Notes under the pieces: generated by a model
Database searches by the model: none
Seen by the model: only the letters and a program-made list of their open reading frames with translations
Told to the model about the DNA's origin: nothing
NCBI GenBank assembly: GCA_003553485.1
Contig: PWEJ01000110.1
Span: forward strand, 1 to 38,916
Length of the DNA stretch: 38,916 bases
Reading direction: 5' to 3'
From: Halanaerobiaceae bacterium
Lineage (GTDB): Bacteria > Bacillota > Halanaerobiia > Halanaerobiales > Halarsenatibacteraceae
Part shown: piece by piece, positions 13,096-26,745 of the stretch
Position numbering within the stretch: position 1 is the first letter of the stretch
Layout of the letters: every line of letters begins with the position of its first letter
Program-made: the position numbers and the translations under genes

Positions 13096-13839
13096 ATGAA
13101 AATAGTCGTTTCAGGAAAAGGTGGAGTGGGGAAGACAACAATATCAGCCAGCCTGGCCAGGTATTTAAAGGATAAAGGATTTCAGGTTTATGCCATTGAT
13201 GCTGATCCCGATGCTAATCTGGCTCGGACTTTAGGAATAAAAGATGATGTAAAACCCTTAGTCGAGTTAGAAGAAGTTATTGAGGAGAAGGTGGGGAAAA
13301 AGGGTAGCTTTTATAGCTTAAATCCCAATGTTGATAGTGTGGTGGAGGATTATTCTCTGCTCCATGATGGCATCAGATTTTTAAGGATGGGTGGCGTAAA
13401 AAAGGCTAGTTCAGGATGTTACTGCCCGGAAAACAGTTTCCTCAATTCCATTATGCGCAGTCTGGTATTTTCTCGAGATGAAGCTGTTATCCTGGATATG
13501 GGAGCTGGAATTGAGCACCTTACCCGGGGAACCTCTGCCGGCATGGATGTGATGTTGATCGTCTGTGAACCCAGCAAAGTAAGTCTTGATACCGCCAGAA
13601 CCATTGAAAACCTGGCTAAAGAAGGTGGAGTTAATAAAATTAAGTTTATAGCCAATAAAGTTCGCAGTGCCAAGGAAGAGGAGTTTTTACGTAATAATTT
13701 CACCGAAGAGGAACTCCTGGGTATAATCCCCTATAGTGAAGAGCTTGTACTGGAGGGTATATCTTCAGAGGATGACGGCAGTTTATTAACAGCTGAAGTA
13801 GCAGAACTGATGGCTAAATTAGATCTGGATGATATTTAA
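13096..13839 (+). CDS. cooC: CODH nickel-insertion ATPase CooC
   Basis: A 247-aa MinD/SIMIBI-class ATPase that helps insert nickel into carbon monoxide dehydrogenase. It begins with a deviant Walker A loop (GKGGVGKTT, about residues 7-15), followed by AIDADPDANLARTLG. The Cys-x-Cys in SGCYCPEN (about residue 112) is the metal-binding dimer motif characteristic of CooC. AAGGGAAG lies 6-8 nt before the ATG. It converges on the CODH operon (13924-17703, minus strand) and is separated from it by a hairpin at 13866-13888, so cooC has its own promoter. Confidence 0.93.
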   Translation: MKIVVSGKGGVGKTTISASLARYLKDKGFQVYAIDADPDANLARTLGIKDDVKPLVELEEVIEEKVGKKGSFYSLNPNVDSVVEDYSLLHDGIRFLRMGGVKKASSGCYCPENSFLNSIMRSLVFSRDEAVILDMGAGIEHLTRGTSAGMDVMLIVCEPSKVSLDTARTIENLAKEGGVNKIKFIANKVRSAKEEEFLRNNFTEEELLGIIPYSEELVLEGISSEDDGSLLTAEVAELMAKLDLDDI

Positions 13840-13865
13840 GCTCTTAATTCAGCAAATATAAGAAA

Positions 13866-13888
13866 CCGGCCTCATTTAATGAGGCCGG
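13866..13888. terminator. Bidirectional hairpin between cooC and the CODH operon
   Basis: CCGGCCTCATT (13866-13876) is followed by its perfect complement at 13878-13888, giving a GC-rich hairpin with a small loop. It lies between converging genes. Flanking T runs are poor on both sides, so termination strength is uncertain. Confidence 0.6.
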
Positions 13889-13923
13889 CTTAAAGCTGAT
13901 TGGGTTATGCCTTGGTTATGCAG

Positions 13924-15186
13924 TTAGATAAAGCTGGTTAAATAGCTATTATTGAAGTCACTATTTAAGAGTTTATCCTTTAAGTCTTTAACATTGGTCT
14001 TTTTCTTAAGCAGTGATAAAAATATTCCTGAAGCAGAGATATCACCCAGGAGCACAAAGCCCACAATTCTGTCCTCCTGCAGATAAATCTTTCTGAGATA
14101 GCCCTCACCTTCTTTTTTTAAAACTTCTCCATTAAGCTCTCCCACTACCATCAATTTAAAATTTAGCTCCTTTAATGAATTCATGCTTAACATAGGCTGA
14201 TATTGCTGTTCCTGGCCAAGCATATTAAGCGCTGCTGTTCTACCGTGATTAACTGCAACTGGATGGAGACCGTGAGATTTTAATTCTCCGCTGAAAAAAT
14301 CTCTGGTTAGAGCTACATCCCCGGCAGCATAGATATGGTCAAAATTCGTCTCAAGTCGGCTGTTTACCGGAATACCCCAGTCGGTTTTTATGCTGGTACC
14401 ATCCAAAAACTCGATATTGGGTTTAACCCCGGTGGCAGCGATATAGATATCTCCCTGCAAGATTTGGCCTGAAGTTGTCTTTAAGCCGGTGATTTCTTCT
14501 TCCCCGAGGAATTCATTGCCTTCAGTATTGAGCAGCACATTAACCCCCTGAGACTCAAGATCTTTCACCACATAACTGGCTGTTTCTTTATCCAATAGCC
14601 GGGGCATTATCCAGCCGCGCCTATTTAATACCGAAGGCTTAATACCTAATTGAGCCAGGCAGAGAGCGATTTCCACCCCGATAAAACCTCCTCCCACTAT
14701 AATAGCCTGAGCTTCCTGTCCTTTTTCTTGGGCCAGGGCTTTAATTTTTTCAGTAGAAGAGAGGTTTTTAAAATTTAAAAGCCCTGGTTTATCGTGTCCG
14801 GTTATCACGCTGGAAATATGCAATGAGCTACCTGAAGCTATTAATAATTTATCGAAGTGATAATTGGAGTGCCTGGAGGTAAGAATATTATTCTCGGGAT
14901 CAAGCTCAATAACTGGTTCATTACGGTGTTCAACTACATGATACTTCTCAGCAAAATTTCGCCCCTTCCAAAAAAGAATATCCTCTTCGTCCTGTAAGAG
15001 GTATTCACCTAAAGCAGCAGGAGAATAGGGGGGAGAGTCCTCAGCTGAATAGAGGTGAATCTCCCCAGCAAAATTATTAGCTCGTAGGGTTTCTACCGCT
15101 GATACTCCAGCAGGTCCAGCTCCGATAATATGAATTTTTTCTTTGTCATCTGACAGCTTTGTAGATCGAGATCTATTTAAACTCAT
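13924..15186 (-). CDS. FAD/NAD-dependent oxidoreductase of the CODH operon
   Basis: A 420-aa flavoprotein of the NADH oxidase/rubredoxin reductase-like class. An N-terminal FAD fold (IHIIGAGPAGVSAVETL) is followed by a central NAD(P)H fold (AIIVGGGFIGVEIALCLAQ), the ATG motif (AATGVKPNIEFL) and the second FAD motif (HIYAAGDVALT). Its ATG overlaps the end of cooS by 4 nt, so the two are translationally coupled. A CooF-CooS-flavoprotein operon is a known arrangement in anaerobic bacteria that couples CO oxidation to NAD(P)H through the ferredoxin-like CooF. That role is inferred here from order and family. NADH versus NADPH preference is not readable. Confidence 0.88.
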   Translation of the reverse strand: MSLNRSRSTKLSDDKEKIHIIGAGPAGVSAVETLRANNFAGEIHLYSAEDSPPYSPAALGEYLLQDEEDILFWKGRNFAEKYHVVEHRNEPVIELDPENNILTSRHSNYHFDKLLIASGSSLHISSVITGHDKPGLLNFKNLSSTEKIKALAQEKGQEAQAIIVGGGFIGVEIALCLAQLGIKPSVLNRRGWIMPRLLDKETASYVVKDLESQGVNVLLNTEGNEFLGEEEITGLKTTSGQILQGDIYIAATGVKPNIEFLDGTSIKTDWGIPVNSRLETNFDHIYAAGDVALTRDFFSGELKSHGLHPVAVNHGRTAALNMLGQEQQYQPMLSMNSLKELNFKLMVVGELNGEVLKKEGEGYLRKIYLQEDRIVGFVLLGDISASGIFLSLLKKKTNVKDLKDKLLNSDFNNSYLTSFI

Positions 15187-17063
15187 ATCCCTAAAGCTTT
15201 CCTTTTATCTGCAATATGATTGATGATAAGCTCTGCTGCTTTTTGGGGGTCAGGCTCCACAGCAAAACTAGCTCCTACTATCTCCTGCAATTCAGAGCTT
15301 AAGAGGTTAACTACCTGCTGGCTGCCAAAAATCTTTGGCGGTGGACCTAAGACCGTGTAGACTCCAGAGGCGACAAAATAACTTCCGATGGTAACAGCTT
15401 TTTGAGAATACCATTCAGGAGCTGCTCCAGCTACTGGAAGTTGGTGGATGCCTACACCTAATTCTTTGGCCAGAGCACCCAGCAGCACTAAAATTCTGGA
15501 ACAGTCGACACAGGAGCCCATATGGAGAATTGGAGGCAGGTTTAAAGACTCTAGAACCGGGCGCAAACCTGGACCGGCCAGTTCACTGGCTTCAGGCTGT
15601 AGAAGGCCGGCTTTGCCTGAGGCTACAGCAGCACAACCAGTTTCTACCAGCAGAATATCATTTTTAATAAGTTCTCTGGCCAGGATCAGATGACCTTTAT
15701 CCTGTTTGATTTTAGGGTTGTTACAGCCAACTATCCCAACAGCTCCCTTTATTTGACCTTCTTTAATAGCCTCTAAAAGAGGTTCAGGACTGCCGCCAAG
15801 AGCCTGCAAAATTGCCTCCACAGAGAAACCAGCTGTCACTGGGGTGGCTTCACCAGGCAGGCTGACTCGGTCAGGATTTCTTTCTGGATAATTAGCTATA
15901 GCCCTTCTTATTATTTGTCGGGCAGTCTCCAGAGCGGTTTCAGGATGGAATTCTAGATGAGTAGCTCCTGGTATTTTTGACTTGCTGCTGGTGGTGATGA
16001 TCTCAGTGTGATAACAGTCAGCACTTTCAACCAGAGTAGGGAAGATACATTGATAATCAATAACAGTAGCTTCAACAGCCCCTGTAGCCAGCGCTAGTTC
16101 CTGGTCCAGCATGTTACCGGCCATGGGAATGCCCTGGCGCAGGAGTATCTCATTACCAGTACAGCAAAGTCCAACAATATTAATTCCCTTTGCTCCAGCA
16201 TCACGGGCCTGCTGTTTTAATTCTTCTTCTGCAGTGGCCTTGAGTATCATTTCTGATAATATAGAGTTATGTCCATGAACAATAATATTTACCATATCTT
16301 CTTCTATTACCGCTAGATTTATATTGCTTTCATTTATCTCCGGGGTGCCAAACATAACATCTCCCAGTTCAGTGGCCAGCATAGAACCTCCCCAGCCGTC
16401 GCCTAAGGCTGTCCTCAGGCCATGAAGTAACATGTTAGCTGCAGAGGCACCTACTCCCATATGAGTTCGGTGCATGGCTTCAACTATATCTCTATCGATG
16501 CTGCGGGGACTTATGCCTGCTTCCTCCCAGAGTTTAAGGGTTGCTTCCGGTGCTCTAGCGGTGAAACTTAAAGATTGAGAGCGAGTGCCAAATTCATCTA
16601 ACATTTTTTCTGCTAATTCAGCAGCAACTTCAAGGTCGGGTTTATCGGCGGAGTCAATGTTATAGATTTCAGCCAATCTTTTTAGCTTAGCACTATCGGT
16701 TATTTTATAACCGGGACTATCATTTTGAGCCATCTTATGGAAGGTCTCTAGTACTTCTCGGCCGTGGTCGGAGTGAGAAGCAGCACCGGCAGTAATGTCA
16801 GCTAAAAGATTACGAGCAACAATGAGGTCAGCATCAGCCCCACAAACACCTCGCCGGGGTCCTTCCTCAAAGGGGTCGGCCTGGCAGGGGCCCATAGAAC
16901 AGCGATTACAGCAGACACCAGTCTGGCCAAAGCCACATTGAGGCTGCTGAGCCAGTAATCTATCCCAGGCCGTCTCAAGGCCATCTTGATTGGCCTTATT
17001 TAAAGCAGCTTGAGAGAGTTTGTCTTCAGTTAAATCTTCTGGACGATTTTCTTTAAATTGCAT
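15183..17063 (-). CDS. cooS: Ni-dependent carbon monoxide dehydrogenase catalytic subunit CooS
   Basis: Cytoplasmic CODH, CO + H2O to CO2 + 2 e- + 2 H+, 626 aa, typical length. All metal ligands are visible. The N-terminal pattern has Cys 43 and 51 (D-cluster) plus 52, 55, 60 and 74 (B-cluster). C-cluster ligands are the His in VHGHNSI and the cysteines in GLCCTGNE, DYQCIFPT, VGCNNPK, ETGCAAVASG and MGSCVDCSR. A QKA lysine near the C-terminus corresponds to the acid-base region. This is the monofunctional CooS type, not the acetyl-CoA synthase-associated AcsA. cooF lies 4 nt upstream, the FAD/NAD oxidoreductase overlaps downstream, and cooC is nearby. Confidence 0.97.
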   Translation of the reverse strand: MQFKENRPEDLTEDKLSQAALNKANQDGLETAWDRLLAQQPQCGFGQTGVCCNRCSMGPCQADPFEEGPRRGVCGADADLIVARNLLADITAGAASHSDHGREVLETFHKMAQNDSPGYKITDSAKLKRLAEIYNIDSADKPDLEVAAELAEKMLDEFGTRSQSLSFTARAPEATLKLWEEAGISPRSIDRDIVEAMHRTHMGVGASAANMLLHGLRTALGDGWGGSMLATELGDVMFGTPEINESNINLAVIEEDMVNIIVHGHNSILSEMILKATAEEELKQQARDAGAKGINIVGLCCTGNEILLRQGIPMAGNMLDQELALATGAVEATVIDYQCIFPTLVESADCYHTEIITTSSKSKIPGATHLEFHPETALETARQIIRRAIANYPERNPDRVSLPGEATPVTAGFSVEAILQALGGSPEPLLEAIKEGQIKGAVGIVGCNNPKIKQDKGHLILARELIKNDILLVETGCAAVASGKAGLLQPEASELAGPGLRPVLESLNLPPILHMGSCVDCSRILVLLGALAKELGVGIHQLPVAGAAPEWYSQKAVTIGSYFVASGVYTVLGPPPKIFGSQQVVNLLSSELQEIVGASFAVEPDPQKAAELIINHIADKRKALGI

Positions 17064-17067
17064 TTAT

Positions 17068-17703
17068 TTATTCCTCCTTATTTTTTTCGCCTTGACTGGC
17101 TGGCAAAGGCCCCATTAGAGCCATTCTGTGTTGAATCTCCTGAAAAGCTCTGATATTAGCAGGTATAGCCTGGCTGGACTCACCGGCTGTTTCTAGAGTG
17201 GTTGCTATAGCTAATTTTTCTCTTCCTGCTGAGGAAATTTTGTTGATATCATCATATATGAGAGCTTCAGTGCGACAGGCAGCAGCACAGGCCGGAATTT
17301 TTCCTTGCTTTAGTCTCTCCAGACAGTCATCACACTTATAAGCTGAAGGTCCTTTTTGCTCCTCTAATTCCGGGAAATCAATAGCACTATAGGGACAGAC
17401 CATGGCACACATACCGCAGGATATACATCTTTCTCCCTGGACTAGGACAGAGTCAGTCTGTTCATCCCGATAAATAGCTCCTGTGGGACAGATATTATGA
17501 CAGGGGGCTGGTTTGCAGTGGCGACAACGGGCGGGGAAAGTGAGATAATCGATCCCCAATTTGACCTCCAGACGAGGAGGGGCTAAATTTTTAGCTGTCA
17601 GGGCTGATATTATATTACTATAACTGGAATGCTCAAGCACACAGGCTAATTCACAGTGGCGACAGCCCACACAGCGTTTGATATTAACATATACTGTTTT
17701 CAT
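17068..17703 (-). CDS. cooF: CooF-like polyferredoxin, electron carrier of CODH
   Basis: A 211-aa iron-sulfur protein with four [4Fe-4S]-type cysteine sets: CVGCRHCELAC (about residue 12), CRHCKPAPCHNICP, CISCGMCAMVCP, and CDDC with a later CAAAC. This is the CooF/HycB/DMSO-reductase B arrangement. It should take electrons from the CooS B/D clusters and pass them to the downstream FAD/NAD oxidoreductase or other acceptors. Ribosome site CTAGGAGGT is 6 nt before the ATG. First gene of the CODH operon, divergent from the ferredoxin at 17933. A palindrome ACTTCTTGAAGT at 17757-17768 in the shared upstream region could be a regulator site; that is speculative. Confidence 0.93.
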   Translation of the reverse strand: MKTVYVNIKRCVGCRHCELACVLEHSSYSNIISALTAKNLAPPRLEVKLGIDYLTFPARCRHCKPAPCHNICPTGAIYRDEQTDSVLVQGERCISCGMCAMVCPYSAIDFPELEEQKGPSAYKCDDCLERLKQGKIPACAAACRTEALIYDDINKISSAGREKLAIATTLETAGESSQAIPANIRAFQEIQHRMALMGPLPASQGEKNKEE

Positions 17704-18220: not shown

Positions 18221-20089
18221 TTAATTTACAGCATCTGCTAGAGCTTCCAGAAATCCCTCAGAAGAATAGGTTGCTCCTGAAATAGTATCCTTTTCGATAG
18301 ATTGGGTGGCAATGACATTTTCTATCAGCTTATCGAAGGCTGGTTCAGCATTATCAGGAACATCTTCATGGGCTAACACCTGTATTTCTGTAATTAAACC
18401 ATCTTCTACTGTAACCTCAATTTCAATATCATCATAAAAGCCAGAGCCTATACCGGTGTAAGTTCCATCTGAGATGGTAAAATCAGGCTCTACATCATCT
18501 TCGGGCTCTACAGTCACATCTCTGTCAGCTAAGGCTCTTTCTACAGCTGTTATAATGGCCTCGCTTGTTTTGGTAGCACCGGAGAGCACATCAACATCGG
18601 TATCCTGATTATCAATAATTGCCTGAGGAATTTTATCAAAGGCCGGTTCACCAATATCTTCAGACTCTGAGTGTTCAATAATCTCTATTGAAGAAATATC
18701 TCCATCAGAGCCGATAGTCACCTCAACTACAAGTTCTCCACCATAACCTTCAGCGGAACCGGTCAAAACCTGCTCTCCATCATCCTCTTCTTCGGTAACT
18801 TCTGCTTCTGCTTCTTCTAAAGCTTTGTGGACTGCTTCCATGATAGCCTCACTGGTCTCTGTTACCCCGGAGACTACATCTACATCAGGGCTTTGCGTAG
18901 CAATAATTTCCTCTGGAATTTCTTCCAGGGCGGGCTCGGCAAAACCTTCAGTTTCTTTATGCTCTAAAATGTCGATGGCTATTATCTCGCCGGCAGCAAT
19001 CTCTACCTCGACAACTAATTCCCCGCCATAACCTTCAGCAGAAGTGGTTATCTTTTGACTTTCTTCCTCCACAGGTTCTTCAGGCTCAGCAGTGGGATCG
19101 AAGCCAACGTCATCCAGGATTTTTTGCACTGCCTCCATGATAGCTTCACTGGTGACTGTAGCTCCAGAAACAACATCTACCTCAGTGCTTTGAGCTGCGA
19201 TAATATCCTGAGGAGTTTCTTCTAAAGCAGGCTCGGCGATACCTTCGGTTTCACTGTGTTCGATAACTTCAATAGAAAATATCTCCTGTTGGCTAAGCTC
19301 AACCTCCACTGTCAGATCACCACCATAGGCCTCAACAGTAGCGGTTTCTATCATTGTTTCTTCCTCCACAGGTTCTTCAACTTCTTCATCGGGGTCCCAT
19401 TCTGCTTCAGCTAGGGCAATCTCCACAGCCTCCATGATAGCTTCACTGGTGACTGTAGCTCCAGAGACAGCTTCCACATCAGTGCTCTGAGCTGCAATTA
19501 TATCCTGAGGAGTTTCTTCTAAGGCCGGATCAGCAATATCCTCTGTCTCTTCGTGGTCAGTGACCTGGATATTTAAAATTTCTTCCGGTGTTAACAGCAC
19601 TTCCACCGTTAAATCACCACCGTAGGCTTCCACAGTAGCCGTATAGGTTTCTGTATCAGGCATATCAACTTCTTCTTCAGGATCAGCCTGGGCCAGGGCA
19701 TCATCCACTGCAGCTAAAAAACCTTCACTGGTGGCAGTGGCGCCAGAGACCATATCAACATCGGTGCTCTGAGCTTCCATAACAGCTTCAATTAAATCTT
19801 CAAAGGCAGGAATGGCAAAATCATCGGTCTCCTGATGCTCCAGGACCTCTATATATACAATTTCGCCATCTTTTATAGAGACTTCAACTTCCATTTCTCC
19901 GCCATAACCCTCAGCTACTCCAATAAATTTTTCAGCTTCATCAACAGGCTCCTCTTCAACGGCAGGGGAGGGCTCGGCTTCTGCTGTTGGAGTAGGCATC
20001 TGATAATCCTCTATGCCATAGATAAAGATAAAAGCAAAGACCAGTATGACTGTAAATATTATACTCAAAGTTATATTCTTTTTGAACAT
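18221..20089 (-). CDS. Membrane-anchored protein with six tandem FMN-binding (RnfG/NqrC-type) domains
   Basis: About 622 aa from the ATG at 20089 (MFKKN); a GTG at 20104 sits directly on the GGAGG and is the alternative start. One N-terminal membrane segment (residues 5-24) is followed by an acidic Pro-rich linker. Six repeats of about 80-100 residues then follow, each with a GYGG or AYGG turn, an H-x-E-(T/S) strand end, a PA(F/L) helix and a Ser-Gly-Ala-Thr site. The predicted flavinylated threonines are at about 118, 212, 311, 410, 506 and 607; repeat 4 reads SGVT, and repeat 6 has a divergent front half. In RnfG, NqrC and similar proteins ApbE links FMN to this Thr by a phosphodiester bond, so the protein could hold five or six FMNs on the outer face of the membrane. 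It is the last gene of the redox cluster and precedes the terminator at 18145. No ApbE gene is visible. Covalent flavin transfer is family knowledge; electron-wire function is inferred. Confidence 0.9.
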   Translation of the reverse strand: MFKKNITLSIIFTVILVFAFIFIYGIEDYQMPTPTAEAEPSPAVEEEPVDEAEKFIGVAEGYGGEMEVEVSIKDGEIVYIEVLEHQETDDFAIPAFEDLIEAVMEAQSTDVDMVSGATATSEGFLAAVDDALAQADPEEEVDMPDTETYTATVEAYGGDLTVEVLLTPEEILNIQVTDHEETEDIADPALEETPQDIIAAQSTDVEAVSGATVTSEAIMEAVEIALAEAEWDPDEEVEEPVEEETMIETATVEAYGGDLTVEVELSQQEIFSIEVIEHSETEGIAEPALEETPQDIIAAQSTEVDVVSGATVTSEAIMEAVQKILDDVGFDPTAEPEEPVEEESQKITTSAEGYGGELVVEVEIAAGEIIAIDILEHKETEGFAEPALEEIPEEIIATQSPDVDVVSGVTETSEAIMEAVHKALEEAEAEVTEEEDDGEQVLTGSAEGYGGELVVEVTIGSDGDISSIEIIEHSESEDIGEPAFDKIPQAIIDNQDTDVDVLSGATKTSEAIITAVERALADRDVTVEPEDDVEPDFTISDGTYTGIGSGFYDDIEIEVTVEDGLITEIQVLAHEDVPDNAEPAFDKLIENVIATQSIEKDTISGATYSSEGFLEALADAVN

Positions 20090-20179
20090 GGCTGGACAGC
20101 TCACCTCCTATTACTTTACCATCTTAAATTTATTTTTCAATCTTTTGTCTTAGCAGATCTTATTTTTGAAAAAATCTGC

Positions 20180-20917
20180 TTATACTTTTTCTTTCTCCTT
20201 TTTTTCACTGCTGAAAAAATCTGGCAGTTTAATCCTGCCGGGGCAGACAAAGGAACAGAGACCACAGCGGATACAATCATCAGGAGAAAGTCGAGCCAAT
20301 AATTCTTCCTGTTCAAACTTTACCGCCTCCATGATTAGCACGGGATAAAGATTATTGGGGCAGGCTTCAATACAATAGCCACACCTAATACAATCCTTGG
20401 GCTCACCGGAATATGAACCGCTCTCCTTGGGATATTTGGTCTTGGACTCATCAGAATCGTAGGCAAAATGCCTGAGAATAGGAAGCTTATCATGTTTTTT
20501 TGTAACATTGCTGTATATTTTGCGGAATTTTTCCGGGCTAATCCCCATTATCTCATAACGATGACCTAATTCCTGTAATTCGCAATCACCGGCCGAATCA
20601 CACATCACGCAATTACACTCATGCTCGCTTAACATAAGATCAATTAAATTACGGCGATGCCTTTCTAATTCCTCATCAAAGGCCACAACTTCCATACCCT
20701 CTTCGACCTCAGTTGTACAGGCAGGTTTTGGCCATTCGCTACCATTAATTTTTACCACACAGAGACGACAGGCAGCGGTGGGAGAGAGGCGAGGATGATA
20801 ACAGAGACCTGGTATATCAATTTCATGTTCCCAGGCCGTTTTTAACAGATTTGCCCCTTCCTCCGCTTTGATCTTTTTGTTATCTATGGTTATAGTAACC
20901 TTATTCTTTGCTGGCAT
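20180..20917 (-). CDS. NuoG-type iron-sulfur domain fused to RnfC-type ferredoxin domain
   Basis: A 245-aa iron-sulfur protein with two parts of different origin. The N-terminal half matches the start of NuoG, HydA or FDH: a [2Fe-2S] plant-type domain (Cys 39, 50, 53, 67) and a His-Cys3 [4Fe-4S] set (His 99, Cys 103, 106, 112). The C-terminal part carries CIRCGYCIEACP (176-186) and CIRCGLCSFVCP (215-225), separated by a helical LYPVLIMEAVK segment. This layout and spacing belong to the C-terminal ferredoxin domain of RnfC rather than to NuoG. It probably relays electrons between the NuoF-like flavin subunit and the membrane/catalytic fusion protein. It follows the nuoF-like gene by 22 nt, with a GAAAGGAGG site before the ATG. 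Confidence 0.88.
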   Translation of the reverse strand: MPAKNKVTITIDNKKIKAEEGANLLKTAWEHEIDIPGLCYHPRLSPTAACRLCVVKINGSEWPKPACTTEVEEGMEVVAFDEELERHRRNLIDLMLSEHECNCVMCDSAGDCELQELGHRYEIMGISPEKFRKIYSNVTKKHDKLPILRHFAYDSDESKTKYPKESGSYSGEPKDCIRCGYCIEACPNNLYPVLIMEAVKFEQEELLARLSPDDCIRCGLCSFVCPGRIKLPDFFSSEKKEKEKV

Positions 20918-20939: not shown

Positions 20940-22844
20940 TCACTTCTGGGCCACTCTTTTAACTTTTTCTGAACCCTCTTGCTGTCCCGGAATAACTGCT
21001 ATAGCCTCAAAGGGACATTCCTCGATGCAGGTTCCACAGCTAATACAAATTTTATTATCTATAACATAGGGATCACCGCCAGGCTCGCCAGCAATGGCAT
21101 CGACGGGACAGGCTCTTTTGCAGCGATCACAGGCTTTACATTCTTCAGGATCAACTTCATAATAGATGAGCTCAGGACATACTCCAGCCGGACAGGCTAA
21201 ATCATGAATATGAGCTTCATACTCATCTCTAAAGTATTCGATTGTAGAAAGCACCGGGTTAGGGGCAGAATCGCCTAAACCGCAGAGGGCAGTTTTCTTA
21301 ATGGTCTTAGAAATATCCTCTAGTTTAATCAGATCCTGTTCGGTACCCAGCCCCTCAGTAATGCGGGTAAGAATATCTAACATTTTGGGAATACCATTTC
21401 TGCAGGGAAGACACTTTCCGCAGGATTCATCTTTGAGAAAGTCCAAAAAGAACTTGGCCACATCTACCATGCAGGTATCTTCATCCATTACCACCATTCC
21501 GCCGGAACCCATCATAGAGCCAGCCTCAGAAAGCTCGTCAAAATCGACCTTTAAATCAAAGAGGTCTTCAGGGATACAACCTCCGGAGGGCCCGCCGGTC
21601 TGAACTGCCTTAACCTTTTTGCCCCCGGGAATTCCTCCGCCGATATCAAAGACAATTTTTCTCAGAGTAATTCCCATCGGGACTTCAATTAAACCGGTGT
21701 TATTTACCTTACCTACCAGAGAAAAAATCTTGGCCCCTTTACTATTTTCTGTACCTATTGACTTAAACCATTCTGCTCCATTCATAATGATTAGAGGAAC
21801 ATTACCGAAGGTTTCTACGTTGTTTAACACCGTGGGTTTACCGAAAAGCCCCTGCTGGACTGAACGCGGTGGGGTCTGACGGGGCATAGGTCTTTTACCT
21901 TCAATGGAATGCATTAAAGCTGTGGACTCTCCAGCCACGAAGGCTCCGGCTCCTTCAGCCACTTCCAGATCAAAGGAGAAGTCTGTTCCCATGATGTTAT
22001 CTCCCAGCAAGCCGTATTCTCTGGCCACCTCAATGGCCTGCTTGGTATGTTTTACAGCTAAAGGATATTCAGCTCGAACATAGATATAGCCCTGATGAGC
22101 TCCAATGGCGTAGGCAGCGATGATCATTCCCTCAATCACCAGATGGGGGTTACCCTCCAGGATACTGCGGTCCATGTAAGCACCGGGGTCTCCTTCATCA
22201 GCGTTGCAGGCCAGATACTTAGGTTCAGCTTCCTCCTGGCGACAATATTTCCACTTTTTACCGGCAGGGAATCCTGCTCCACCACGCCCTCTTAAATTAG
22301 CTTCTATTGTTTCTTCAATTACATCTTCCGGGCTCATTTCATATAATGTTTTGGCCAGAGCTGAATAACCATCAACGTTAAAATAATCGTCGATTTCAGT
22401 GGGCTCAATAAAACCATTATTTTTAAATACCAGTCTTTTTTGGTGCTTATAGAAGGGTATATCCTGTTCCTTTTCAATTTTTTGCTGTGATTCAGGATCA
22501 GTATATAGTAATCTATCCACTGATTTTTTATTTTCAATTGTTTCTTCCAGGATTTCAGGGATGTCCTCTGGTTCTAATCTGATGTAAAAGGAACCCTGCG
22601 GTCTAATGACCATGAGAGGACCCTGCTCACAAAACCCCTGGCATCCAGTTATTTTAATACCTATAGTATCACTTAAATTTCTTTTTTCAACTTCAGACTT
22701 TAATTTATCGATAACCTTTTGACAGCCTGAACCCTGGCAACCAGTGCCGCCACACATGGTGATAAAACTTTCTTTTTCTTCTTGCTTTTTTTGAGCAGCC
22801 TGCTGTAACGCTTTTAATTTTTCCGGGGAGTCAATTCTTTCCAT
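20940..22844 (-). CDS. nuoF: NuoF-like NADH/FMN subunit with extra iron-sulfur domains
   Basis: A 634-aa NADH-oxidising (or NAD-reducing) flavoprotein. It has an N-terminal thioredoxin-like [2Fe-2S] domain (CGGTGCQGSGC near 31-41, then CQGFC at 68-72). The NuoF core follows, with the GRGGAGFPAGKKW nucleotide/FMN motif (about 186-198) and the [4Fe-4S] site CGKCLPC with a later CGLGDSAPNP. Two C-terminal ferredoxin motifs (CKACDRCKRACP and CISCGTCIEECP) complete it. This long form is that of HydB and the NADH subunits of bifurcating hydrogenases and formate dehydrogenases, so electron bifurcation between NADH and ferredoxin is possible. No [FeFe]-hydrogenase gene is present; the partner here is the FdhA-like fusion. 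It overlaps the nuoE-like gene by 1 nt. Confidence 0.94.
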   Translation of the reverse strand: MERIDSPEKLKALQQAAQKKQEEKESFITMCGGTGCQGSGCQKVIDKLKSEVEKRNLSDTIGIKITGCQGFCEQGPLMVIRPQGSFYIRLEPEDIPEILEETIENKKSVDRLLYTDPESQQKIEKEQDIPFYKHQKRLVFKNNGFIEPTEIDDYFNVDGYSALAKTLYEMSPEDVIEETIEANLRGRGGAGFPAGKKWKYCRQEEAEPKYLACNADEGDPGAYMDRSILEGNPHLVIEGMIIAAYAIGAHQGYIYVRAEYPLAVKHTKQAIEVAREYGLLGDNIMGTDFSFDLEVAEGAGAFVAGESTALMHSIEGKRPMPRQTPPRSVQQGLFGKPTVLNNVETFGNVPLIIMNGAEWFKSIGTENSKGAKIFSLVGKVNNTGLIEVPMGITLRKIVFDIGGGIPGGKKVKAVQTGGPSGGCIPEDLFDLKVDFDELSEAGSMMGSGGMVVMDEDTCMVDVAKFFLDFLKDESCGKCLPCRNGIPKMLDILTRITEGLGTEQDLIKLEDISKTIKKTALCGLGDSAPNPVLSTIEYFRDEYEAHIHDLACPAGVCPELIYYEVDPEECKACDRCKRACPVDAIAGEPGGDPYVIDNKICISCGTCIEECPFEAIAVIPGQQEGSEKVKRVAQK

Positions 22845-23344
22845 TATTCTCCCTCCTCTCGTAATTCAGTTACCAGTTGTTGAACTTCTTTTTTAGAAAT
22901 TTTCCCGTGATATTCCCCATCAACTATAATTACCGGGGCTACAGCACAGGTTCCAACACAACGAGCTGTTTCTAAAGAAAACTTTTGGTCTGGAGTTACC
23001 TCTCCCACCTGAATACCCAGTGTTCTTTCCAGTTCAGAGACGAGGAGAGGTGCTCCCCTAACATGACAGGCAGTTCCTGTGCAGACCACTATATGATAAT
23101 CTCCTAAAGGCTTTAGACGAAATTCGTTATAGAATGAAGCTATACCATAGAGCGAGACTAAAGGGACGGACAGCTTCTGAGAAGCCCTGATCAGGGCTTT
23201 CTCAGGAAGCCAGCCATAAAACTTCTGTATATCCTGGAGTACAGGAAGAAGAGGAGATTTTTGTTGATCTTTACTGGCCAGATTTTCGGCAATAATTTTA
23301 TCTATAGCTTTCAACTCTTCAGTTTCAAAAGCCATAATTTTCAC
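22844..23344 (-). CDS. nuoE: NuoE-like thioredoxin-fold [2Fe-2S] subunit
   Basis: A 166-aa subunit that partners NuoF in complex I, bifurcating hydrogenases and NAD-linked formate dehydrogenases. A helical start (LPVLQDIQKFYGWLPEKAL) precedes the [2Fe-2S] domain with its four cysteines in CTGTACHVRGAP and CVGTCAVAP. It follows the large RnfD-FdhA gene by 17 nt, with a GGAGGTG site before the start, and its stop shares a base with the nuoF-like start. It forms the electron input/output module with the next gene. Confidence 0.94.
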   Translation of the reverse strand: MKIMAFETEELKAIDKIIAENLASKDQQKSPLLPVLQDIQKFYGWLPEKALIRASQKLSVPLVSLYGIASFYNEFRLKPLGDYHIVVCTGTACHVRGAPLLVSELERTLGIQVGEVTPDQKFSLETARCVGTCAVAPVIIVDGEYHGKISKKEVQQLVTELREEGE

Positions 23345-23361: not shown

Positions 23362-26300
23362 TTATGAAACAATCAGTTTTTCTTCTTGAGATATTTTTTC
23401 GATCTGACAGGGTGTGCTCTTTAATGCTGGCACTCCGGAATCCTGATCAAAAAGATCACTGGTTAATTTATTGACTGGAGATTCGGCAAAGTGAATGGGG
23501 ATAAAGACCTCTCCAGTTGCAACTCTATCTGTTATACGTGCTTTCACCGTTATCTGTCCCTGTTTAGAGTTTACTTTAACATCTTCATTATCTGAAATAT
23601 TGAGCTTATTAGCATCATCAGGGTTTATCTCTAAATAGGGCTCATTGACCTGAGCAGTTAAAGCCTCTGATCTTCTGCTCATAGAACCAGTTCTAATGTG
23701 GTAAAGACTCCGGCCAGTTATTAAAGTGAAGGGATACTCCTCATCGGTTTTTACACTGGGCGTAAATTCTACCGGCTGGAAAACAGCTTTACCATCATCA
23801 TGCATAAACTCATCTTTGTAGAGAAAATCAGTTCCATTTTTATCGGGTTTTACCGGCCACTGGAGACCTTCAGTCCAGAGGTTACGATAATTTACTCCCT
23901 GGTAGAGAGGAGTTAATTCAGATATTTCCTGCATGATATCAGCAGGTTTATCATAATCTAAATCAAAACCCAGTTCTTTGCCAATGGCAATTAAAATCTC
24001 CCAATCAGATTTAGCCTTTCCTGGTGGATCCATGGCTTTGTTAATACACTGGATTCTTCTTTCAGTGTTGGTATAGGTTCCTTCTTTTTCCACAAAGGTT
24101 GCTGCTGGCAGGACTACATCGGCTTTTTCAGCAGTTTCACTTAAGAAGGGATCGATAACAGCTAAAAAGTCCAGATTTTCTAAGGCCATATCGGCTTTCA
24201 TTTTATTGGGTTCTGAGAGGGAAGGGTTATCTCCCATTATCAGCATGGCCTTGATATTGCCAGCCATGGCTTCACTCATCATGTCAGTGGCAGTTAAGCC
24301 TTTAGCTTCTGGAAGTTCTCTCTGCCAGTAGCTGGAGAATTTATCCCGTACTTCTTTATCTTCAATACTCTGATAGCCAGGTAAATAATCAGGTAGAGAG
24401 CCCATATCGCTGGCTCCCTGGACGTTATTTTGCCCCTGGAGAGAATTAATACCAGTTGAAGCCCGGCCAACATTACCTGTTATCAGACTGAGATTTGCCA
24501 GGGATAATACATTTTTAGTGCCTGATTCATGCTGGGTCATACCGGTAGCAAAGGCTATAGAACCCTTATCTGCTTCAGCAAACAATTTAGCAGCAGCAAC
24601 AATTTTTTCAGTGCTAACTCCAGTGATTTCCGCCACCTTATCTGGAGTATAGTCATTAAGGGTTTCTTTTAAGTCGGCAAATCCTTTGGTTTTTTCGGCA
24701 ATAAACTTTTTATCAGTAAGGTCGTTATCCAAAATTACTTTCATAAGGCCGTTAATGAGAGCAGTGTCAGTGCCATTTTTCGGCCTGATCCAGTGAGTCG
24801 CCCATTTAACCAGTTCAATCTCTCGGGGATCTATAACTATCAGATCAGCTCCATGATTACGGACAGCATTTTTAATATATTGGGCTATTACTGGATGGGC
24901 AGCAGTGGTGTTTGATCCGGCAACCAGGATACAATCAGCATTTTCAAACTCGGCAATTGAGTTTGTCATGGCTCCACAACCAAAGACCTTTTCTAAGGCT
25001 TTAGCAGAAGAAGCCTGACAGAGTCGATTAGAGGTATCTATATTATTGCTGCCAATACCTGCTCGCAGTAATTTCTGGAAAAGATAATTTTCTTCGTTGG
25101 TACTCTTAGCAGAGGCAAAACCTGCTATAGCCTGAGCGCCATGTTCTGCTTTTACTTTTTTAATATTGTCGGCAATTTCTTTTATAGCTCGTTTCCAGTT
25201 GACTGGAATCAATTCACCATCTTTTCTAATTAGAGGATACTTTAACCGATCATCAGAATTTACATAGGTATGCCCAAATCTACCCTTTATACAGAGAGAA
25301 CCGAAGTTAGGCTGGGCATCAACAGCTTCAACTCTAATTAATTTATTATCTTTTGTATAGACGTTCATCTGACAACCTGTACCGCAATTACTACAGGTAG
25401 TTCTTACCTTATTGTCTGCTTCCCACTTTCGGACAGGTTCCGTGGAGATTTTCTCTGTAATTGCTCCAGTGGGACATAGTTCAAAGCAGCCACCGCAACC
25501 ATCACATTCAGAAAATCCTCTTTCACCGAGACCGGCCGTGGTAAATATGTTTGAACCTCGATCTCCTAAACCTAAAATACCCTTTTCCTGTATCTCATCA
25601 CAGGCCTTAACGCAGCGCTGGCACATGATGCATTTTGAAGCATCATAGACTAACACCGGCGAAGTGGTATCCTTGGTCAGGTCGATATCTTTACCAGGGC
25701 TGAAAGACTTTTTGCCCCTGCCAAAAGGTTCTTTGAGTCCTATTCTATCGATATAGGGAGCATAGGGGTTTAATATAACTAGAGCTACAAAGGAAGCCCC
25801 ATATAAGCCGATTAAAGTAAGTCCCATAGTTAAGAGAGCCAGTAAACCACCAAAGATATATTGTCCTTTTAAAGTGGCCGGAGTTGTCTGAGGCTCTGTG
25901 GCCATGTAAAATCCTAAAAAGATGACACTACCAGTAAAGACGTGGAAAGCAATCCTGGTAATTACAGGGCCGCCAGTAGCCAGGCCAAGTATAGCTGCCA
26001 GGATAGTCATGCCTCCAAGAAAACTCAAAGTTATTCTCCATTTCAGTTTAATCCAGTAGGCTAAAAGGACTCCTGAGAAGAGAGTAGCTATTCCTGAAGC
26101 TCCACCAATCCAGCCATGACGTTTCCAGAGAAAGAGACTCTCAGTAACGCTTAAATTTTCAGTGCCATAAAAGCCCATAACCTCACCGAGTTCCATGGCT
26201 CCCTGAAAACCTTCACCGGTGAAGAGATTATAGGCTAGATGTTCAGGATAAAATAACATCCCTGAGGCCAAAGAATCAGGCAGAAACCACATAAAGGTTA

Positions 26301-26745
26301 TAATGAATAAAACTAGCATTTTTGCTCCAGCGGCTGGATTAATAACCTTTCTGCCCACATATTTTTCCTGGGCCCATTTGAAGCCTATCATAGTTACTGC
26401 CGAGACGATTGCTGTAATCCAATAGGGAGATAATTCTCCCATACAGAGGCCAACAATCATACCAGCAACCAGTGGAGAATAGGGTGAATCATAGGTTGTT
26501 TCTCCTAGTTTTGTCCTGTCCTGGGTTTCTAATTTTTTAATAATGAAATGACAGATTACTGCAGTGACTACAGCAGATAAAATGTTGAAGAGAGCCATGG
26601 TGCCCATAGCTAATATTGCTGCCAGGGCTGGAATACACATGGCTATAAAAGTGCGCAGCATTACCTGATCCTCTGTCAGCTCAGAATGTTTTAAAGGCTC
26701 AGGTTTTTGGCGCAGTGCTAAGTCTTTTTGCTTGGGTTCTTGCAT
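23362..26745 (-). CDS. RnfD/NqrB-like membrane domain fused to FdhA-like molybdopterin oxidoreductase
   Basis: A 1127-aa fusion. Residues 30-335 form about nine or ten hydrophobic helices resembling RnfD/NqrB (VINPAAGAKM, GWIGGASGIATL, FYMATEPQTTPATLKG). I see no Ser/Asp-Gly-Ala-Thr flavinylation site in this part. Residues 368-430 are a ferredoxin domain (Cys 372, 375, 378, 382; 414, 417, 420, 424). Residues 448 onward are a molybdopterin oxidoreductase of the formate dehydrogenase type: [4Fe-4S] Cys 451, 454, 458, 485; candidate Mo/W ligand Cys 576; and an FdhA-typical GQNNVQGASDMGSLPDYLPG stretch. The catalytic His expected after Cys 576 is Gln 577. The likely reaction is formate/CO2 at the membrane, unproven. 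First gene of a tight five-gene operon; the ribosome site is an unusual GGGGGGT. Confidence 0.9.
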   Translation of the reverse strand: MQEPKQKDLALRQKPEPLKHSELTEDQVMLRTFIAMCIPALAAILAMGTMALFNILSAVVTAVICHFIIKKLETQDRTKLGETTYDSPYSPLVAGMIVGLCMGELSPYWITAIVSAVTMIGFKWAQEKYVGRKVINPAAGAKMLVLFIITFMWFLPDSLASGMLFYPEHLAYNLFTGEGFQGAMELGEVMGFYGTENLSVTESLFLWKRHGWIGGASGIATLFSGVLLAYWIKLKWRITLSFLGGMTILAAILGLATGGPVITRIAFHVFTGSVIFLGFYMATEPQTTPATLKGQYIFGGLLALLTMGLTLIGLYGASFVALVILNPYAPYIDRIGLKEPFGRGKKSFSPGKDIDLTKDTTSPVLVYDASKCIMCQRCVKACDEIQEKGILGLGDRGSNIFTTAGLGERGFSECDGCGGCFELCPTGAITEKISTEPVRKWEADNKVRTTCSNCGTGCQMNVYTKDNKLIRVEAVDAQPNFGSLCIKGRFGHTYVNSDDRLKYPLIRKDGELIPVNWKRAIKEIADNIKKVKAEHGAQAIAGFASAKSTNEENYLFQKLLRAGIGSNNIDTSNRLCQASSAKALEKVFGCGAMTNSIAEFENADCILVAGSNTTAAHPVIAQYIKNAVRNHGADLIVIDPREIELVKWATHWIRPKNGTDTALINGLMKVILDNDLTDKKFIAEKTKGFADLKETLNDYTPDKVAEITGVSTEKIVAAAKLFAEADKGSIAFATGMTQHESGTKNVLSLANLSLITGNVGRASTGINSLQGQNNVQGASDMGSLPDYLPGYQSIEDKEVRDKFSSYWQRELPEAKGLTATDMMSEAMAGNIKAMLIMGDNPSLSEPNKMKADMALENLDFLAVIDPFLSETAEKADVVLPAATFVEKEGTYTNTERRIQCINKAMDPPGKAKSDWEILIAIGKELGFDLDYDKPADIMQEISELTPLYQGVNYRNLWTEGLQWPVKPDKNGTDFLYKDEFMHDDGKAVFQPVEFTPSVKTDEEYPFTLITGRSLYHIRTGSMSRRSEALTAQVNEPYLEINPDDANKLNISDNEDVKVNSKQGQITVKARITDRVATGEVFIPIHFAESPVNKLTSDLFDQDSGVPALKSTPCQIEKISQEEKLIVS

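Follow-up and report, generated by a model that had tools for sequence, protein, structure and literature searches.

A putative Bfu-type NADH and ferredoxin module joined to Rnf parts in Halanaerobiaceae, with a linker subunit apparently derived from a split formate dehydrogenase

A short iron–sulfur protein encoded in the genome of a salt-loving member of the Halanaerobiaceae carries the front part of a formate dehydrogenase subunit (FdhA) at one end and the C-terminal ferredoxin domain of RnfC at the other, and its gene stands beside genes for NuoE- and NuoF-type subunits and for an RnfD-type membrane domain. We interpret this protein, hereafter the linker, as a BfuA-like subunit of a membrane-bound hybrid complex of the BfuABC type, which we name Rnf-Bfu and which would send electrons from NADH, with or without reduced ferredoxin, to RnfD and to flavins outside the membrane, a reading to which we assign a probability of roughly 0.55. 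The architecture is well supported by the sequences compared and our confidence in it is high, whereas confidence in the function is moderate, the direction of electron flow, the partners and the activity being what we infer from that architecture. The subunits of the hybrid would be in physical contact.

Results and discussion

Gene organization

The window (the whole stretch of 38,916 nucleotides that was analysed) holds five closely spaced genes on the minus strand, in the order RnfD-ferredoxin-FdhA fusion, NuoE, NuoF, linker and a protein with six FMN_bind domains, so that the linker is encoded by the fourth (Table 1). Scans for promoters and terminators gave signals near the shuffled level. 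An assembly or frameshift artefact was rejected, as orthologs with open frames and 47-68% identity occur in six other genomes. The gene of the flavinylation enzyme (ApbE) is present in the source genome.

Table 1. Coordinates of the hybrid gene cluster and of its domains in the window
Feature	Position	Strand	Basis
Linker (P0001), 245 aa, FdhA/NuoG-type [2Fe-2S] and His-Cys3 [4Fe-4S] domain joined to RnfC-type 2x[4Fe-4S]	20180..20917	minus	
Linker residues 1-122, FdhA-like N-terminal domain	20552..20917	minus	identity to FdhAs
Linker residues 172-241, RnfC C-terminal ferredoxin domain	20195..20404	minus	profile and BLAST matches
NuoF/HydB-type subunit, 634 aa: thioredoxin-like [2Fe-2S], FMN/NADH domain, C-terminal 2x[4Fe-4S]	20940..22844	minus	
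NuoE/HydC-type [2Fe-2S] subunit, 166 aa, Cys 88, 93, 129, 133	22844..23344	minus	
RnfD-ferredoxin-FdhA fusion, 1127 aa	23362..26745	minus	
RnfD/NqrB-type membrane domain of the fusion (P0002)	25708..26745	minus	
Fer4_Nqo3 (NuoG-type) ferredoxin domain of the fusion, residues 363-430	25456..25659	minus	Pfam
FdhA molybdopterin domain of the fusion	23401..25401	minus	
RnfG-like protein, 627 aa, six FMN_bind domains, six SGxT sites, N-terminal hydrophobic stretch	18221..20104	minus	

Beyond the six-FMN gene, genes for a ferredoxin subunit, a CO dehydrogenase and an FAD protein follow on the same strand (17703-13924). The wider region 13096-17703 reads as CooS, a ferredoxin subunit and a NirB/NADH-oxidase-like FAD protein on the minus strand, together with a convergent gene for a CooC-like ATPase. 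Co-inheritance of the hybrid with these genes was rejected, since CooS, the HycB-like and NirB-like proteins and CooC have no BLAST partner beside the hybrid clusters of loci L050, L052 and L053, where the sole weak HycB match is NuoF itself.

Two halves of the linker

In the linker, Pfam recognizes Fer2_4 at residues 5-77 (5e-18), NADH-G_4Fe-4S_3 at 88-123 (6e-11) and 4Fe-4S dicluster models at 172-229. Among the NCBIfam models, the N-terminal half matched best the NADH-dependent [FeFe] hydrogenase A6 (residues 7-136, 7e-40), followed by HoxU (5e-33), and NuoG was matched over residues 9-121 at 1e-28; the top hydrogenase, NuoG and formate dehydrogenase chains of a PDB search also align mainly with the N-terminal part. 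For residues 172-241 the best model was TIGR01945 rnfC (2.2e-17, 62.8 bits), matched at positions 361-430 of 435 only, with RsxC (59.3 bits) and methanogen RnfC (36.8 bits) as runners-up, and no NuoG model peaks there among the NCBIfam matches listed. The same stretch aligns with residues 361-430 of the solved RnfC 7zc6_C, and comparison with RnfC profiles by hhalign gave a probability of 99.6% for Asgard RnfC and of 99.0% for other RnfC. In BLAST comparisons of residues 160-245, six Asgard RnfCs scored 69-79 bits at 44-52% identity and five non-Asgard RnfCs 44-54 bits, whereas no FdhA ferredoxin domain exceeded 31 bits. A standard NuoG or formate dehydrogenase ferredoxin as the source of the C-terminal cluster pair is rejected by the NCBIfam ranking and these scores, which leaves in place the RnfC-type tail of the preliminary description.

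The cluster ligands are C39, C50, C53 and C67 for the [2Fe-2S] cluster and H99, C103, C106 and C112 for the His-Cys3 cluster in the N-terminal half, a pattern already described for the first 115 residues and borne out by the two Pfam domains, and C176, C179, C182 and C186 followed by C215, C218, C221 and C225 in the C-terminal half. All 16 are invariant in two ortholog alignments of six rows each. The two Cys motifs of the tail are separated in the predicted model by helices at residues 192-200 and 204-209 (local pLDDT ~80), in agreement with the helix noted there before; the pLDDT of the linker model was 48 from six rows and 74 after FdhA and RnfC rows had been added. Given the profile and BLAST matches, the invariant ligands and the helices of the model, a chance motif is ruled out. 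The fold searches with the linker model covered residues 4-126 only, and RnfC is not listed among their results. Weak similarity to RnfC (residues 317-372) extends over linker residues 117-165, and the RnfC FMN/NADH domain (PF01512) was not found in P0001.

Probable origin from a split FdhA

Linker residues 1-122 are 59-63% identical to residues 1-119 of the FdhAs of five loci (L064-L067, where the range is 60-63%, and L069), and the fusion protein, from residue ~358, matches the FdhAs of L064-L067 from residue 137-139 onward at 52-53%; three of these four loci belong to Bipolaricaulota MAGs. Because the linker front and the remainder in the fusion match consecutive stretches of the same FdhAs, both seem to come from a single ancestral FdhA that was divided somewhere between residues ~120 and 138. 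Judged from these matches, its front piece would have been joined to the RnfC ferredoxin and its remainder to the RnfD-type membrane domain. The fusion retains a NuoG-type ferredoxin domain of its own. The linker had been described as a NuoG front on an RnfC tail; the fusion and the RnfC part of that description stand, and its N-terminal half is, by sequence identity, derived from FdhA and not from NuoG.

The RnfD domain and an Asgard RnfD-RnfC module

The RnfD domain of the window is a distant member of its family. Its homologs in the same genome share about a quarter of the positions, and of 398 evenly sampled genomes of the phylum 37 have an RnfD match; the best besides the window's own is 33% identical and none, the window's own aside, lies in a long fused frame. 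Among the matches listed from a plasmid collection, RnfD reaches 24-25% only. Around the Lokiarchaeota MAG of L090, 196 genomes were searched, and in seven of them an RnfD reaches 42-49% identity to the window domain. A full RnfC follows RnfD directly in all six Asgard neighbourhoods read (L125, L126, L127, L128, L129 and L130; L124 was left out), and the tails of these RnfCs match the linker. In a tree of 38 RnfDs, the six hybrid and six Asgard sequences form one clade (100/100), apart from the 26 others. Both Rnf-derived domains of the hybrid, the RnfD domain and the linker tail, are closest to this two-gene Asgard module. Unlike the hybrid, the module has RnfD and full-length RnfC as separate genes, and a comparison with the window's FMN_bind, NuoE, NuoF and FdhA proteins showed no similar gene beside the six pairs.

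At the position of the Thr that binds FMN covalently, all 12 hybrid and Asgard RnfDs have Met or Leu, against Thr in all six others aligned; in the window this is Met184, aligned through 9eri_D with T156, the Thr concerned in Acetobacterium woodii RnfD (PMC11889175). In the predicted riboflavin pocket of the window RnfD, Asn136 is kept and the Asp is replaced by Glu284. Loss of the flavinylation site has also been described in NQR/RNF-like systems (PMC10979944). The genome has six matches to RnfA/RnfE (PF02508), all on contigs other than that of the window, and a canonical Rnf operon is rejected on this ground.

Distribution and variants of the locus

Full-length homologs occur in six of eight genomes of the family (G000, G002 and G004-G007) and in no other of 151 genomes around the window, among the matches listed in both cases. 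The whole gene set is also present in one MAG assigned to the Spirochaetaceae, the only one among 392 genomes of its phylum with this RnfD subfamily at the threshold used. A misplaced Halanaerobiaceae contig was rejected as an explanation on G+C content, which is 60.1% in the spirochaete contig and 34.9-43.1% in the window and the Halanaerobiaceae loci.

Five loci (the window, L050, L052, L053 and L131) have the full order fusion-NuoE-NuoF-linker, and the 3.9-kb contig of L051 agrees with it in showing NuoF, linker and FMN_bind protein in succession. An FMN_bind gene adjoins the cluster in five of seven loci, as a fragment at the contig end in L131, and none stands beside the cluster in L053 or L054, a point against our main reading. 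The idea of one hybrid complex, put forward in the preliminary description, gains from the conserved gene order and from the relationship of both Rnf pieces to a single Asgard two-gene module. In L054 (4162-8489), from a genome that is 77% complete, no NuoE or NuoF gene intervenes and the linker directly follows the RnfD-FdhA fusion, whose C-terminus is formed by a copy of the two-[4Fe-4S] domain found at the end of NuoF. Since this ferredoxin-type domain is fused to FdhA and NuoE and NuoF are missing beside the cluster, the arrangement suggests a version that would receive its electrons from ferredoxin only. The NADH module would then not be obligatory in L054, which counts against our main reading.

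The NuoE/NuoF core

NuoF contains PF01512 and PF10589 (FMN/NADH domain), four Cys of its N-terminal [2Fe-2S] cluster (C31/36/68/72) and eight of its C-terminal 2x[4Fe-4S] (C569/572/575/579/600/603/606/610). The ligands of the B1 [4Fe-4S] cluster are C475, C478, C481 and C521, and those of B2 are C458, T496, H545, C551 and C556, with a spacing equal to that of C438/C476(Thr)/H525/C531/C536 in NiFe-Bfu (PMC9304861); C458, H545, C551 and C556 are invariant in eight of eight rows. The B2 His is kept in nearly all BfuB proteins and absent from non-bifurcating homologs, according to PMC9304861. Judged by these positions, NuoE and NuoF carry every ligand of an electron-bifurcating BfuBC core, bifurcation itself being a prediction. 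The closest NuoFs outside the hybrids (66-67%) are encoded next to formate dehydrogenase genes in members of this bacterial family. In L053 (10152-12014), the conserved FMN-site stretch of NuoF has a four-residue gap, which counts against our main reading, and the FdhA site of the same locus is the most degraded of the set.

The active site of the FdhA domain

The FdhA domain of the fusion scores 810 bits against TIGR01591 (Fdh-alpha), above the cut-off of 666, and its catalytic positions differ from those of formate dehydrogenases. Where 34 of 34 reference FdhAs have the catalytic His, the six hybrids have Q/D/Q/Q/Q/E, and where all 32 references that cover the position have the catalytic Arg, they have Q/Q/Q/K/K/Q. 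In the window these are Gln577 and Gln770. The Mo-ligand Cys, Cys576 in the window, is kept in five of the six hybrids and replaced by Asn in L053. Two loci were kept out of the reference set, L089, whose protein is FdhA-like but has no such motif, and L068, which lies on the contig of L054; references L069 and L074 end before the Arg column. As the catalytic His and Arg are absent from all six hybrids and a further FdhA, encoded separately in the genome, shows an in-frame TGA (Sec) before the His and has LRGQ, the hybrid FdhA is probably not a formate dehydrogenase. The cofactor pocket of the window protein is largely intact, with 67 of 77 reference-invariant columns retained (49 of 77 in L053), and this counts against that conclusion.

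The same retention, the Mo-ligand Cys included, and frames that are open in six of six loci speak for a molybdenum domain that has acquired a new substrate and exchanges electrons with NAD(H), ferredoxin and the membrane. We consider this unlikely: the variable catalytic positions and the loss of the Cys in L053 point to relaxation rather than to a new conserved site. A Mo cofactor and some Mo reaction in the hybrid FdhA are nonetheless possible in view of the Cys kept in five of six hybrids and of the conserved columns, which counts against our main reading.

A membrane-anchored formate dehydrogenase, in which a Mo site with an altered second sphere would oxidize formate and feed NAD+, ferredoxin and RnfD, could be argued from the TIGR01591 score, from the Mo-ligand Cys and from ForC of Bacillus subtilis, which is active despite a His to Gln replacement (PMC8808070). 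The same source describes His and Arg as strictly conserved in the formate dehydrogenases known earlier and Gln for His as workable if the Arg stays; ForC keeps the Arg, with an adjoining His added (RGH), whereas the CQ/QGQ of the window falls outside the classes listed there. With the Arg replaced by Gln or Lys in every hybrid and a separate Sec enzyme in the genome, we regard formate oxidation by the hybrid as quite improbable.

Two further FdhA-like loci may be mentioned. At L140 (272-4450) of the window's own genome, the frame of the Sec FdhA, 1393 codons long, has an apparent internal FAD/NAD-type domain and adjoins NuoF- and NuoE-like genes. At L089 (8989-11655), the FdhA-like protein of an Anammoxibacter MAG likewise lacks the catalytic motif of formate dehydrogenases.

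Proposed electron path

The front clusters of NuoG, HydA and FdhA face NuoF. The linker would keep the RnfC piece and exchange the FMN part of RnfC for NuoE/NuoF together with such NuoF-facing front clusters. In the proposed complex, NADH and reduced ferredoxin, the latter by way of the C-terminal clusters of NuoF, would reduce the FMN/Fe-S core, from which electrons could pass to the front clusters of the linker and on to its RnfC-type clusters. These clusters would dock against the RnfD domain in the manner known from Rnf, where the two clusters of RnfC bridge the riboflavin of RnfD and the FMN of RnfC and where both RnfD termini are cytoplasmic (PMC11889175, PMC12174285, PMC9588780). From the RnfD riboflavin, electrons may continue to the covalent FMNs of the extracytoplasmic six-FMN protein, although an RnfD without covalent FMN counts against this presumed step; for multi-flavin proteins, electron transport across greater distances outside the membrane has been proposed (PMC8238504). 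The most economical path would thus lead from NADH, with or without ferredoxin, through NuoF, linker and RnfD to the extracytoplasmic flavins. The main role left to the FdhA domain would be that of an Fe-S relay and scaffold, a change that the molybdopterin domain of NuoG also underwent.

Since the operon encodes no RnfA/E, we would expect outward electron transfer and no Na+ pump of the Rnf type. A pump of Na+ or H+ by RnfD or another part during electron flow from NADH or ferredoxin, in line with the RnfD-centred pump proposed for the Rnf of C. tetanomorphum and for NQR (PMC12174285, PMC9588780), is very unlikely given the same gap and the work on A. woodii Rnf, which gives RnfD a role in electron transfer alone (PMC11889175).

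A bolder form of our main reading, still a membrane-bound member of the Bfu family, would have electrons from NADH and reduced ferredoxin merged and sent through RnfD to the flavin chain, in a complex that arose when FdhA was split around a borrowed, Asgard-related RnfD-RnfC module and then fell silent. We hold this combination to be tentative and somewhat doubtful. If true, the route that led to NuoG and to the NADH arm of complex I would have been taken a second time, independently.

Comparison with known systems

NuoG is a subunit derived from formate dehydrogenase that has probably lost the function of this enzyme. The hybrid resembles NuoEFG of complex I in having NuoE, NuoF and a formate dehydrogenase-derived subunit that is probably no longer an active formate dehydrogenase, and differs in that this subunit is split and fused to Rnf parts and that the membrane arm is RnfD. 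The repeated loss of the catalytic pair for formate would mirror the supposed history of NuoG, with living relatives that still carry formate dehydrogenases of the active type.

With the Bfu enzymes (HydABC/BfuABC; Fdh-Bfu, Nuo-Bfu), the hybrid shares the complete BfuBC ligands and, in the linker, the [2Fe-2S] and His-Cys3 front of BfuA. Its BfuA is, however, truncated and carries an RnfC ferredoxin at its end, and the arm for the third substrate is the RnfD membrane domain; Rnf is not among the Bfu functionalities listed in the pertinent passages of PMC9304861. From Rnf (RnfABCDGE), it has the RnfC-type 2x[4Fe-4S], the RnfD-type membrane domain and an RnfG-like FMN_bind protein, but its operon is without RnfA/RnfE, NuoE/NuoF replace the NADH/FMN domain of RnfC and the RnfD lacks the Thr for covalent FMN. 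NQR/RNF-like flavinylation systems likewise have an RnfD-like protein without flavinylation site, a fused cytosolic input domain and an adjoining FMN_bind protein (PMC8238504, PMC10979944); in the systems described there the fused domain is PF00175 (NqrF-type), which was not found in the RnfD-FdhA fusion (Pfam, E <= 0.001), whereas the hybrid has FdhA with separate NuoE/NuoF and a linker.

On the sequence comparison, the architecture thus appears to be a Bfu type joined to Rnf parts, apparently undescribed; no description of a Bfu-Rnf hybrid was found in the open-licence literature searched. It would illustrate how respiratory complexes are assembled from movable parts, with each half of FdhA coupled to its own half of a minimal Rnf module, and the NADH/ferredoxin core seems to have gained a wire into the membrane through the split of FdhA. 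A minimal RnfD-RnfC module in Asgard archaea also emerges from the comparison, as does a possible route by which haloalkaline anaerobes could export reducing power without an RnfA/E pump.

Partial Rnf sets are known, since a haloalkaline syntroph is reported to have no more than RnfC, D, G and NuoEFGI (PMC6295475). Elsewhere in the window's own genome, an RnfC gene stands beside an RnfD fused to FMN_bind domains (L057, 6112-9868), a further RnfC-RnfD pair is found at L058 (4311-6640), and two adjacent membrane genes of the RnfA/RnfE type, with weak family scores, open the 8-kb stretch examined at L060 (263-1403).
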